From Oceanobacillus iheyensis HTE831 (lineage in GTDB: Bacteria; Bacillota; Bacilli; Bacillales; Amphibacillaceae): a stretch of 64,000 nt of DNA. Position 1 is the stretch's first letter; every line of letters starts with the position of its first letter. Where the stretch lies: contig NC_004193.1 in the NCBI RefSeq assembly GCF_000011245.1, forward strand, positions 2,582,501 to 2,646,500. Reading direction: 5' to 3'. Positions 17,764 to 20,910 of the stretch are shown here, piece by piece. Under the pieces are notes generated by a model, which was given only the letters and a program-made list of their open reading frames with translations, was not told the origin of the DNA and did not search any database. Made by a program: the position numbers and the translations under genes.

Positions 17764-18537
17764 TTATTCTGGCACTTGAATATCATAGTTAGGTAAAATT
17801 AATACCTCTACACGTCTGTTTTTTGCTCTGTTTTCTGCACTCGTATTCGGTACAATTGGTTGAAATTCTCCGTATCCTTTTGCACTAAACAAAGTAGGAT
17901 CTAACTCTTCGTTCTCTAAGATTAATGTCATAAAGTTAATTGCTCGTGAGACACTTAATTCCCAGTTTGAATTATATTCTTCTGTTTCAATTGGTACATC
18001 ATCTGCATGTCCACTAATCACTACTTGATGTGGTGGCTCTGTGTATAATAAATTGGATACGTCATTTGCTATTTCTTTGCTAGTTTCTTTTACTTCTGCA
18101 CTTCCCGAATCAAAAAATACTTCATTAACCAACGTTATCATTAATCCTTCATCCGTTAATTCCGTACCTAGTTGTTCTGTCAGCTCATGCTCTTGTATAA
18201 AATGATTAATTTGTGTCTGTAATGCTTGTAAGTCTCTTAATTCACTCTCACTTTTACTTAACTGTTCATCCTGTTCTTCACTATCCTCGTTTTCATCTAC
18301 TTCTTCTTGTTCTGGAGGGGGTACAGGAATTTCTTGATGATCAAGGACTCCAGAACCTGCATTAGAAAATTCACTTCTAAATACACTAGCTAATTGTTCG
18401 TATTTTTGTATATTAATATCACTCATTGCAAACAAAACGATAAACAAAGCAACTAGTAGCGTAAGTAAATCTGCATAAGGAAGTAACCAGGATTCATCCA
18501 TATGTGACTGGCTTTTCTTCTTCCCTCTTCTACTCAT
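17764..18537 (-). CDS. motB: Flagellar stator protein MotB
   Basis: A 257-residue stator protein with one membrane helix and a C-terminal OmpA-like peptidoglycan-binding domain. The ion-carrying Asp23 is in WLLPYADLLTLLVALFIVLF. The anchor domain shows ISGHADDVPI, NWELSVSRA and NRRVEVLI. A 40-residue acidic Pro/Glu-rich linker follows the plug region. Overall it resembles B. subtilis MotB (proton type) more than MotS, but ion choice cannot be settled by reading. Its start overlaps the end of motA by 8 nt. Confidence 0.93.
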   Translation of the reverse strand: MSRRGKKKSQSHMDESWLLPYADLLTLLVALFIVLFAMSDINIQKYEQLASVFRSEFSNAGSGVLDHQEIPVPPPEQEEVDENEDSEEQDEQLSKSESELRDLQALQTQINHFIQEHELTEQLGTELTDEGLMITLVNEVFFDSGSAEVKETSKEIANDVSNLLYTEPPHQVVISGHADDVPIETEEYNSNWELSVSRAINFMTLILENEELDPTLFSAKGYGEFQPIVPNTSAENRAKNRRVEVLILPNYDIQVPE

Positions 18538-19315
18538 TCGTATATCCCTCTTTTATTGAAGCAATATCTTTTGAAGGAAGTAAAGAACCAAGTTTCTCTT
18601 GCACGATCAATCGAGAATCTCCAGTAGTAATGGATAATATTCCTTCAACTATTATTTCCTTTTGAAGAACTTCTCTTTTAGATTTTTCACGTAATTTATT
18701 CGCAAATGGATGCCATAGAACATATCCAGTAAATATACCTAATAATGTCGCAATAAATGCAGCTGAGATTGCAGCACCCAGTGCATCAATGTCTGACATG
18801 TCTCCCAATGCAGCTATCAATCCAATAACTGCTCCAAGAACCCCTAATGTAGGAGCATATGTACCAGCTTGGGTAAAGATAGCTGCACCTTCCTCATGAC
18901 GCTGTTCCATAGCCTCTATCTTTTCCAGCATAATATCTTTAATAAAATCTGGAGACTGTCCATCTATAGCAAGTTGTAAACCTGATGATAGAAATGAATC
19001 ATCCACTTCGCTAATTTGTTGCTCTAATGACAATATCCCTTCTTTTCTTGTTTGATCCGCCCAATCGCTAAACATTTCAATTATTTCTTTCGTGTTTGCT
19101 TGCTTCGATTCAGTAAATATAATCTTAAAAAGTGCAGGTATCTTCTTTAAGGCACTTCCAGGAAATGCTATGGTAACTGCAGCTGCAGTCCCTAATAAAA
19201 TAATTAAAATCGCTGCTGGGTTAATAAGAGCTTCCAGTCCAACCCCTTTTAATACCATTCCGATTCCAACGGCAATGAGGCCTAATATTAATCCAATAAT
19301 TGATGTCTTATCCAT
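18530..19315 (-). CDS. motA: Flagellar stator protein MotA
   Basis: A 261-residue membrane protein that forms the stator ring with MotB. It matches B. subtilis MotA closely: MDKTSIIGLILG at the start, AIFTQAGTYAPTLGVLGAV, and FIATLLGIFTGYVLWHPFANK. Four membrane helices and the large cytoplasmic loop that contacts FliG are present. AGGAGG lies 6 nt before the ATG. It is the first gene of motA-motB-cheA-cheW and has a SigD-type promoter 36 bp upstream. Confidence 0.95.
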   Translation of the reverse strand: MDKTSIIGLILGLIAVGIGMVLKGVGLEALINPAAILIILLGTAAAVTIAFPGSALKKIPALFKIIFTESKQANTKEIIEMFSDWADQTRKEGILSLEQQISEVDDSFLSSGLQLAIDGQSPDFIKDIMLEKIEAMEQRHEEGAAIFTQAGTYAPTLGVLGAVIGLIAALGDMSDIDALGAAISAAFIATLLGIFTGYVLWHPFANKLREKSKREVLQKEIIVEGILSITTGDSRLIVQEKLGSLLPSKDIASIKEGYTNE

Positions 19316-19350
19316 TGATATCCTCCTATTAACAAAAGTTGCTAATCTTT

Positions 19351-19377
19351 TTATCGGTAATTTTTATAACTTTTGTA
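19351..19377 (-). promoter_or_regulatory. SigD-type promoter of the motA operon
   Basis: On the minus strand TACA, a 15-bp spacer and ACCGATAA match the SigD pattern TAAA-N15-GCCGATAA at 10 of 12 positions. It is at the right distance before motA, and motility genes are classical SigD targets. Confidence 0.7.
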
Positions 19378-19808
19378 GAAATAGAGATATACTTTTTTCA
19401 TTTATAAGAAGGAAATCTAAATTTTCGTAATGAGTATAATTTAATTGTTGTTTTTTTGTAAACCTGTATTATTTCTGAAATTTTTTGTTATAAAAAAACA
19501 GTCCTAAGTTACCGCAACTTATGTCTCATCTCAAGAAAATCACCTGTTTTATCCGTGATTAATCCTATATTATGTTATCAATTTTCTCTACACGGAGTAT
19601 AACTATTAGTTAATATAGCCTAATTTATTTCTGATGTTTATTTCACCAGTAAAATAATCATACTAAATACCTATTAATAGACTAGGTAAAATGCAATTAG
19701 TAAAAATTGTAAATTTTCAATATAATATACAAAATTAACCATATATTGGTTGTGAACAGGTCCTTTATTTTGCCTTTATCACAATATAGAAGGGAGGAGA
19801 GAATTAGG
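19378..19808. other. Divergent intergenic region between motA and sigO
   Basis: This gap of about 430 bp is very AT-rich. Besides the SigD promoter at its left side I see no gene. AATATAATATAC near 19721-19732 could be a -10 region for the sigO operon, but no good -35 accompanies it. Confidence 0.45.
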
Positions 19809-20429
19809 ATGAGTAATCAAGGAGTATCACCTGAAGAAATTCGCCACTTTCATTGTGCACAGAAATTTGTCAAAGATAATGAGCTAATTTTTCGTAATGC
19901 TTTACTTCAGTCATTTATGCAGTCTCCGGAACATTGGGCGTTATTAGAAGAATCTCTAAATTGTCCGAGCTCTGATGCCACAAGATTGTTAGATAAAAAG
20001 TTTAAAGAACACTTCTCAGAAATATCACTAATTAGTCTTTTATCGAATGAAATTCGCAGGTTTGCTATCCGCTATGATCAACGCTATCGTCGTAATACAA
20101 AAAGACAGATGCTCATTCTCGACCGGCCACGATATCACGACTCCCAAGTAACCACTTGGATGGAATTAATTCCATCTAAACAAACATTAGAACAAGAAGC
20201 TTTTCAAACGGAAGGACGTTTAGAAAATAGAGTGGAAAACCCGATTATTCATAAAGCAATAAACCAATTAACAGCCAGACAGAAATTCATTCTAGAAGCA
20301 GCATATATTCATGAGTGTACCGATACAGAAATTGCCCAAATAGATGGTGTCTCACAACAAACAATTAGCAAAACAAGGAAAAAAGCGTTGCAAAACATTT
20401 ACTCGTTTTTGCAAAGGGAGGGAGAATGA
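19809..20429 (+). CDS. sigO: SigO (YvrI)-like split sigma factor, region 4 subunit
   Basis: A 206-residue sigma-factor-like protein resembling YvrI/SigO of B. subtilis. The C-terminal half has a region 4 helix-turn-helix (TDTEIAQIDGVSQQTISKTR) for -35 recognition. The N-terminal half lacks an obvious region 2, which fits a sigma factor that needs the separate RsoA subunit. The ATG at 19809 has GGGAGGAG upstream; the ATG at 19746 would add 21 residues without a ribosome site. It overlaps yvrJ, which overlaps rsoA, so all three are coupled. Identity rests on the neighbourhood plus the domain pattern. Confidence 0.75.
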   Translation: MSNQGVSPEEIRHFHCAQKFVKDNELIFRNALLQSFMQSPEHWALLEESLNCPSSDATRLLDKKFKEHFSEISLISLLSNEIRRFAIRYDQRYRRNTKRQMLILDRPRYHDSQVTTWMELIPSKQTLEQEAFQTEGRLENRVENPIIHKAINQLTARQKFILEAAYIHECTDTEIAQIDGVSQQTISKTRKKALQNIYSFLQREGE

Positions 20430-20602
20430 TGAGCGATATTTCAATCATGACCTATCTTACATCCTTGTTAGAAAATGTTGGATTCCCTGTTATGGTCACC
20501 TTATTCTTATTAATTCGATATGAAATCCGAATTAAACAACTTGAAGAACATTCAAAGGATCTATCCGATCTTATTAGAGATTTAAGGAGGGATATGACAT
20601 GA
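20429..20602 (+). CDS. yvrJ: YvrJ-family small membrane protein
   Basis: A 57-residue protein, MSDISIMTYLTSLLENVG and onward, with one hydrophobic segment (FPVMVTLFLLIRYEIRI) followed by a charged helix (KQLEEHSKDLSDLIRDLRR). This is the YvrJ family pattern, encoded in the sigO-rsoA-oxdC neighbourhood of B. subtilis. GGAGG lies 7 nt before the ATG at 20429; an ATG three bases earlier is also possible. It overlaps the sigO stop and the rsoA start (ATGA). A role as membrane sensor or regulator of the sigma pair is inference. Confidence 0.7.
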   Translation: MSDISIMTYLTSLLENVGFPVMVTLFLLIRYEIRIKQLEEHSKDLSDLIRDLRRDMT

Positions 20603-20865
20603 CTAAACTAATTGAGTTAACCAAACGTGTTCAACTTGATAATGACCTAGATTCCTTAGAAACCATCCTTCATTTATTCGAACCAAAAATGAAACAATCG
20701 CTTCTACAAACAAATTATCAGGAACGAGAAGACTTATTACAAGAATTACAAATTAAAACGATTGATATTATAAGGAATTATGATTGGACAAAGGGATACA
20801 CCTTTTGGGAATATACGGAAAAAATACAGTCTGAGTTCTATTCAACCTATCAAGAAGCAAATTAA
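20599..20865 (+). CDS. rsoA: RsoA-like sigma region 2 subunit
   Basis: An 88-residue protein resembling RsoA (YvrHa), the co-sigma factor that supplies a region 2-like domain to SigO. It has QEREDLLQELQIKTIDIIRNYD and GYTFWEYTEKIQ, similar to the core-binding and -10-binding helices of sigma region 2. AAGGAGGG lies 8 nt before the ATG, which overlaps the yvrJ stop by 4 nt. A hairpin without a T run follows at 20882. The oxalate decarboxylase genes controlled by SigO in B. subtilis are not in this window. Confidence 0.72.
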   Translation: MTKLIELTKRVQLDNDLDSLETILHLFEPKMKQSLLQTNYQEREDLLQELQIKTIDIIRNYDWTKGYTFWEYTEKIQSEFYSTYQEAN

Positions 20866-20881
20866 AGTTAGATTCCCAATT

Positions 20882-20910
20882 CCAACACCATCTTATTCTG
20901 ATGGGGTTGG
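20882..20910 (+). terminator. Hairpin after the sigO operon
   Basis: CCAACACCATC pairs with GATGGGGTTGG (one mismatch) around 7 nt, 17 nt after rsoA. It lacks a T run, so it is a weak terminator at best. Confidence 0.4.

Follow-up and report, generated by a model that had tools for sequence, protein, structure and literature searches.

The closest described counterpart of the locus considered here is SigO-RsoA (YvrI-YvrHa) of Bacillus subtilis, in which sigma region 4 and sigma region 2 likewise reside on separate proteins and which is known from one oxalate/acid regulon. A further system with some likeness is megacin A-216 of Priestia megaterium, reportedly a UV-inducible phospholipase A2 bacteriocin, whose induction is said to need a sigma-like protein of 188 aa and at least one further gene; no paper on this sigma-like gene was found in the literature searched. 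In B. subtilis, oxdC is a documented SigO-RsoA target (PMC8103513), and an AND gate has been assembled from separate sigO and rsoA cassettes together with PoxdC, its toolbox including a plasmid that deletes the native divergent regulon; no yvrJ cassette is named in the portion of that paper available (PMC10028694). In Clostridium, the UviA-UviB-endolysin-Bcn5 modules combine a sigma factor with a small holin of one helix, an amidase-type endolysin and a leaderless bacteriocin (PMC9527704). The BhlA/TpeE holins (PF10960), of which BhlA has 70 aa (PMC9527704, PMC5100339), resemble YvrJ in having a single membrane helix at the N terminus, followed by a charged tail.

The window, i.e. the whole stretch of 64,000 nucleotides of Oceanobacillus iheyensis HTE831 that was analysed (C1:2582501-2646500 of a genome searched as one contig of 3,630,528 bases), contains an operon of the SigO-RsoA kind. 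It differs from the B. subtilis system since its yvrJ lies between the two halves on the same strand, no OxdC was detected in the genome and the equivalog cut-off of the RsoA profile NF041489 is not reached. Several relatives of the window's module share the parts list of the UviA/UviB modules; however, the latter have a one-piece sigma factor and a BhlA-family holin, whereas the window's kind has a split sigma factor and YvrJ, and no endolysin or bacteriocin-like gene was found near the window's operon. Our preferred reading, which we consider fairly probable, is that SigO-RsoA and YvrJ constitute the regulator-and-holin core of SOS-controlled lysis/bacteriocin-release modules, of which the window would carry a reduced, autoregulated version. 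The features of the locus are the following:

19748..19779, + strand: candidate SigO-RsoA-type (autoregulatory) promoter, with GGTTGT at 19748-19753, an 18-bp spacer and GCCTTTAT at 19772-19779
19790..19800, + strand: sigO ribosome-binding site aagggaggaga, read from the sequence
19809..20429, + strand: sigO-type gene, 206 aa, with sigma region 4 at residues 143-205
20429..20602, + strand: yvrJ-type gene (PF12841), 57 aa, with a single membrane helix and a charged C-terminal tail
20599..20865, + strand: rsoA-type gene, 88 aa, with a sigma region 2 fold

The three frames overlap by 1-4 nt, as a sequence-only reading of this DNA had described, and both their coordinates and the + strand are confirmed: the sigO stop and yvrJ share 1 nt (4 nt if yvrJ starts at the alternative ATG at 20426, giving 58 aa), and yvrJ and rsoA share 4 nt. 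On the 3' side of rsoA, at 20870-20910 of the window, an inverted repeat (CCAACACCATC / GATGGGGTTGG) without a clear T run is a possible weak terminator.

The SigO protein of the window matches Sigma70_r4 with 31.6 bits over residues 150-197 (Pfam cut-off 24.1), and the same profile search gives no Sigma70_r2 match in it; all of 19 SigO relatives match sigma region 4, and the 25 families listed for them, out of 39, do not include Sigma70_r2. The protein had been called region 4-only, which holds for these Pfam matches and is slightly overstated in view of TIGR02937 (NCBIfam), which covers residues 72-198 (profile positions 50-162); the first ~140 residues show conservation across the family but are modelled with low confidence. 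The 88-aa protein reaches 26.6 bits with HTH_16 (Pfam cut-off 22), which we take to be the Pfam family of RsoA, and stays below the cut-off with Sigma70_r2 (17.1 bits, cut-off 24) and with NCBIfam NF041489; since the latter gives 38.5 bits against an equivalog cut-off of 100, the protein is a relative of RsoA and is not called its equivalog. Thus, in the profile check that had been proposed for the locus, Sigma70_r4, HTH_16 and PF12841 score above cut-off, and the matches of both proteins support the suggested distribution of region 4 and region 2 over separate polypeptides, i.e. an operon encoding a split, two-subunit sigma factor, in which RsoA would supply region 2 and SigO region 4. A table in one review gives sigma2 and sigma3 to SigO and sigma4 to RsoA (PMC10141391), the reverse of other sources and of the present results.

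Of 147 genomes searched, 36 (that of the window among them) gave matches to SigO; within the genus, 11 of 28 genomes match and 10 of 28 hold the window's kind of module. An RsoA profile is matched at E<=1e-3 in 181 of the 397 genomes that represent the order. The loci compared are 121 with the window, 40 of them coming from the SigO search and 80 from the RsoA-profile search, the latter hand-picked for spread over genera with neither YvrJ nor LexA as a criterion. They give 120 sigO-rsoA rows, equivalent to 119 modules: L205 is counted twice, since its sigO appears as two fragments, there are two modules in each of L148 and L211, and L073, L188, L193 and L217 have no sigO-rsoA pair. The order sigO-yvrJ-rsoA recurs in 55 of the 120 rows, so that the overlapping trio is more than a chance arrangement; a divergent yvrJ followed by sigO-rsoA is found in 27 rows, yvrJ is last in 18, five have other layouts, and in 15 sigO-rsoA has no YvrJ inside 3 kb. 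YvrJ lies inside this distance in 104 of 119 modules, and its place varies. On a SigO tree of 113 rows (SigO proteins shorter than 150 aa were dropped), midpoint-rooted, with weak deep branches and 41 of 110 inner branches open, at least 24 changes of layout are required. On this tree the window groups with L034-L042 in one clade (support 100), and these 10 loci are hereafter named the clade; the window's SigO is 43-52% identical to those of eight other members and 96% to that of the ninth.

The layouts bear on two alternative roles of YvrJ. It might be a small chaperone or tether, coupling translation or assembly of the sigma subunits and having no pore function, as the coupled overlaps in the sigO-yvrJ-rsoA order could suggest; however, that order is not conserved, yvrJ is on the opposite strand in the 27 divergent rows, and the B. 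subtilis AND gate was built from separate sigO and rsoA cassettes with no yvrJ named in the accessible text (PMC10028694), so that we regard such a role as very improbable. The sequence-only reading had instead made YvrJ part of the switch, for example as a membrane sensor or anti-sigma factor, which would hold SigO or RsoA until a signal arrives, the coupling of the genes fixing the stoichiometry. As a rule, an anti-sigma gene shares a transcript with the cognate sigma gene, and both the overlaps and the central position of yvrJ in 55 rows agree with this proposal, whereas the rows in which it is divergent, last or absent inside 3 kb do not; furthermore, the negative regulator in B. subtilis is YvrL.

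The YvrJ protein of the window reaches 54.1 bits with PF12841 (gathering cut-off 29.5), well in line with the family to which the 57-aa protein had been assigned. The GFP motif and one Leu are invariant in the family alignment; in 104 sequences with GFP (or GYP) an uncharged core of 12-15 residues surrounds the motif, the mean charge is -1.3 on its N side and +0.2 on its C side, and the tail behind the helix has a median length of 26 residues (range 8-38), which is short for an anti-factor. The charge pattern weakly suggests an N-out, C-in topology. A holin family, phrog_4898, is matched by 22 of 27 diverse YvrJ sequences at E<=0.1 (best 2.3e-7), the window's own YvrJ giving a weak E of 0.13, and does not appear in the 25 families, out of 46, that are listed for nine control small proteins, which include one TatA-like and two BhlA-like; this likeness, too, speaks against an anti-sigma function. 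YvrJ thereby differs from the BhlA/TpeE holins, since the PHROG that it matches is another one, and the BhlA family was rejected for this system, PF10960 having no match in the window's genome and being present in 5 of 58 genomes searched. A phage origin was rejected as well: in a tblastn search of 50,697 phage records, the YvrJ of a relative gave nothing at E<=0.01, which together with the weak match of the window's own copy counts against the holin reading, and SigO gave two partial matches, over region 4. We infer that YvrJ permeabilises membranes or exports proteins in a holin-like manner. In the literature searched we found neither a role for YvrJ, although the family is widespread, nor a paper that connects it with holins.

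The window's genome has a second YvrJ gene (L003, C1:2175556-2176487), placed behind two small genes, presumably of the DUF1659 and DUF2922 type, and adjoining a lytic-transglycosylase-like gene. No sigma gene was seen beside this copy, so that YvrJ is not tied to the SigO-RsoA switch everywhere, a further point against an anti-factor.

Upstream of sigO, GGTTGT and GCCTTT are exactly 24 bp apart in all 10 clade loci, the block lying directly upstream of the sigO ribosome-binding site. A wider motif, RGTTGW-N18-SYCTTTA, derived by eye from the comparison of yvrJ upstream regions, occurs outside the clade in 27 exact copies at spacing 18, 3 at spacing 17 and 2 at spacing 19, against none for the reversed pattern at spacing 18. 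In the clade it precedes sigO; elsewhere it is found ahead of sigO, yvrJ, oxdC and signal-less cell-wall hydrolases, and also of phospholipase-A2-like proteins, glutaredoxins and subtilases. A matrix trained on the 27 exact sites and then run on the same loci gives, above a score of 15, 118 sites over all loci, compared with 6 when the sequence is reversed, and 106 in the 1.52 Mb of the 109 non-clade module loci against none in 0.40 Mb of control regions (20, at round coordinates of 20 genomes, about one quarter of the module sequence). Above a score of 13, the figures are 162 against 27 in reversed sequence and, outside the clade, 146 against 3 in the control regions, i.e. 96 against 7.5 per Mb. 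Since the matrix was trained inside module loci, a fair check is provided by oxdC in L187 and L214, which it finds at 15.0 outside the training set. The motif stands at sigO (score >=11.5) in 50 of 109 non-clade modules, 42 of which also have a LexA box, and upstream of yvrJ itself at 8 sites (score >=13); these sites make YvrJ fit an output gene, and a sigma-driven yvrJ promoter would fit negative feedback by an anti-factor too. Judging from sequence conservation, SigO-RsoA probably uses this motif as its promoter.

Perfect copies of RGGTTGT-N18-GCCTTTAT in 26 genomes of the genus stand at sigO in seven and are divergent from sigO in G006 and G013; one is found in G018, a genome with no SigO match. 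In L035 and L036 a second perfect SigO-type promoter lies ~140-180 bp upstream of sigO on the opposite strand, facing away, and degenerate versions of it are seen in some other clade members.

Apart from sigO, yvrJ and rsoA, 54 genes follow a site scoring >=13 (51 outside the clade and 3 inside), of which a minority is expected by chance, because the controls at score 13 are not clean. By a crude test, an N-terminal hydrophobic segment is present in 2 of these 54 putative targets, compared with 496 of the 1348 remaining genes of >=100 aa, membrane proteins included. Among 30 targets put through Pfam, 11 carry wall-cutting domains (Amidase_2, Amidase_3, M15, M23, Phage_lysozyme, Hydrolase_2 and, in two cases, Rv2525c glycoside-hydrolase-like); there are also two subtilases, one glutaredoxin, one cupin (OxdC), two DUF3238 proteins and one with LysM only, while two phospholipases A2 (weak) and one NAGPA stay below cut-off and nine have no match. 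Homologues of eleven target hydrolases occur in 33 of 109 module loci (the queries come from module loci themselves, and 10 of the 33 hold one), in 1 of 20 control regions and in none of the 10 clade loci; 39 of the 42 hits in module loci lack an N-terminal hydrophobic segment, and the match in the control region is not leaderless. Glutaredoxins are found in 15 of 109 module loci (one holds the query) and subtilases in 12 (two hold a query), both in 0 of 20 control regions, the latter also in 8 of 10 clade loci.

The likeness to megacin A-216 lies in 18 phospholipase-type ORFs with a CCxxHDxC motif, found in 12 of 109 module loci and in none of the 20 control regions or the 10 clade loci, and mostly below the Pfam phospholipase cut-off; a looser pattern searched in six frames gives a weaker contrast than the ORF count, 34 against 3 (22.4 against 7.5 per Mb). 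On plasmids of Bacillales, the YvrJ of L043 matches 42 records and the phospholipase-type protein of L048 matches 16; at least 14 of these also occur in the list of 30 records given for YvrJ. A Priestia megaterium plasmid has the order S8 peptidase, hypothetical protein, sigma, YvrJ, helix-turn-helix, glutaredoxin, further genes and a weakly phospholipase-type gene, the helix-turn-helix gene standing in RsoA's place. The leaderless lysins beside the modules, together with the promoters at yvrJ, the match to a holin family and the repeated changes of layout, indicate that a sensor or anti-factor is not the best reading of YvrJ, and we judge it unlikely.

The SOS link of the preferred reading, the regulator-and-holin core, comes from perfect GAAC-N4-GTTC sites, which we take to be the LexA half-site pair of Bacillus, counted where they fall between -220 and +60 relative to the operon or to sigO. 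Of the rows outside the clade, 82 of 110 have one (81 of 109 modules), compared with 17 of 1393 for the remaining genes of >=100 aa in the same loci, which served as controls; being related by the tree, on which the LexA state changes at least 17 times, these counts are not independent events. LexA probably binds these boxes upstream of the sigO operons, and DNA damage would then start most of the sampled modules. No box is found in the 10 clade loci, in 18501-20900 of the window, or in the oxdC-bearing clade (L187 and L214, with L055, L154 and L155). In the window's genome, GAACRNNYGTTC has 9 sites, one of them upstream of lexA, and its reversed control also has 9, so that most of them, the lexA site excepted, may be due to chance; the stricter CGAACRNRYGTTYG has none. 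The midpoint rooting of the tree does not itself set the direction of change in LexA state, and we infer that LexA control was lost in the window's clade, not gained elsewhere. No paper that links RsoA to LexA or the SOS response was found in the literature searched, and the LexA and megacin links may be partly known already.

One-mismatch LexA-like sites, perhaps remnants of lost LexA control, lie upstream of sigO in five of the 10 clade loci (L035, L036, L037, L039 and L040, not the window), where they adjoin the SigO-type promoter on its upstream side. Two loci of the window's own genus, L065 (G009) and L067 (G001), belong to a different, LexA-box-bearing SigO-RsoA module outside the clade, and G001 holds both kinds, L067 and the clade module L041.

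The search for SigO-type promoters that had been proposed was run on the whole genome of the window and returned one perfect copy, at sigO itself (19748-19779). A wider regulon was rejected, sites with mismatches being 10 against 13 in reversed sequence and those of a looser motif 55 against 87. A search of this genome for OxdC homologues at E<=1e-5 came back empty, an outcome that is weak evidence and, as far as tested, supports the earlier remark that the regulon may differ from that of B. subtilis; in the window there is neither a homologue of the tested cell-wall hydrolases nor a CCxxHDxC ORF nearby. An orthologue of the sigO-near subtilase gene of the 8 clade loci is present in the genome, and it was rejected as a SigO target because the motif is missing upstream of it; subtilase promoters in the clade score 15.7 in L039, 13.4 in L041 and 12.2 in L042, and most others share a different upstream block. 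Since no LexA box, lysin homologue or phospholipase-type ORF was found by the operon in the window, and no second perfect promoter in the genome, the lysis/export role is drawn from its relatives.

The operon of the clade could then be a stranded remnant, an autoregulated loop with no functional regulon. The single perfect promoter copy, the absence of OxdC matches and of a LexA box near sigO, and the presence of this kind of module in just 10 genomes of the genus are all consistent with this explanation. Nevertheless, the three frames are open while SigO has diverged to 43-52% identity from eight clade members, the spacing of the promoter block is identical in all 10 loci and YvrJ keeps the GFP motif, and we think a remnant distinctly unlikely.

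In the regulator-and-holin reading, which starts from the split sigma domains, motif, LexA boxes and neighbours found by computation, SigO-RsoA would transcribe its own operon from GGTTGT-N18-GCCTTTAT in a positive loop and hence make YvrJ, a holin-like single-helix membrane protein that would be the output of the switch. In the full system, YvrJ would let leaderless cell-wall hydrolases leave the cytoplasm together with a cargo of phospholipase-A2-like, presumably bacteriocin proteins, subtilases and OxdC. With the box absent and cargo not evident, the window's clade would be left with a reduced sigO-yvrJ-rsoA unit that activates itself and has YvrJ as its visible output. A broader proposal, on which we are evenly divided, is that throughout the order SigO-RsoA-type split sigma factors act as master switches, turned on by the SOS response, for releasing bacteriocins and lysins in a suicidal or holin-assisted way, YvrJ being the dedicated holin; the acid-stress oxdC system of B. 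subtilis and the bare clade operon would be derived forms that work without LexA control, and OxdC, like the lysins, a leaderless cargo exported with YvrJ. The studied B. subtilis case would then be untypical, because the oxdC-bearing clade, like that of the window, has no LexA box. This would give SigO-RsoA and YvrJ a common, testable purpose that connects DNA damage, a split sigma factor, a holin-like protein, lysins and bacteriocins, and the sharp promoter consensus makes the regulons readable from genomes.

Some genes near the modules fall outside the classes described so far. An ECF-type sigma gene is found near L043, L047, L063, L069 and L275, in some cases with an anti-sigma-like gene, and its recurrence suggests further layered control. 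Directly under SigO-type promoters in L145, L195, L184, L203, L209, L149 and L205 there are proteins of unknown kind, namely two DUF3238 proteins, a hydrophobic protein of 153 aa and others with no Pfam match, which are candidates for new bacteriocins or release factors. Finally, a Cys-bearing protein of ~60-70 aa recurs beside the modules of L051, L157, L065, L069 and L048, and stands under a SigO-type promoter in L051 (score 13.6) and L157 (16.9).
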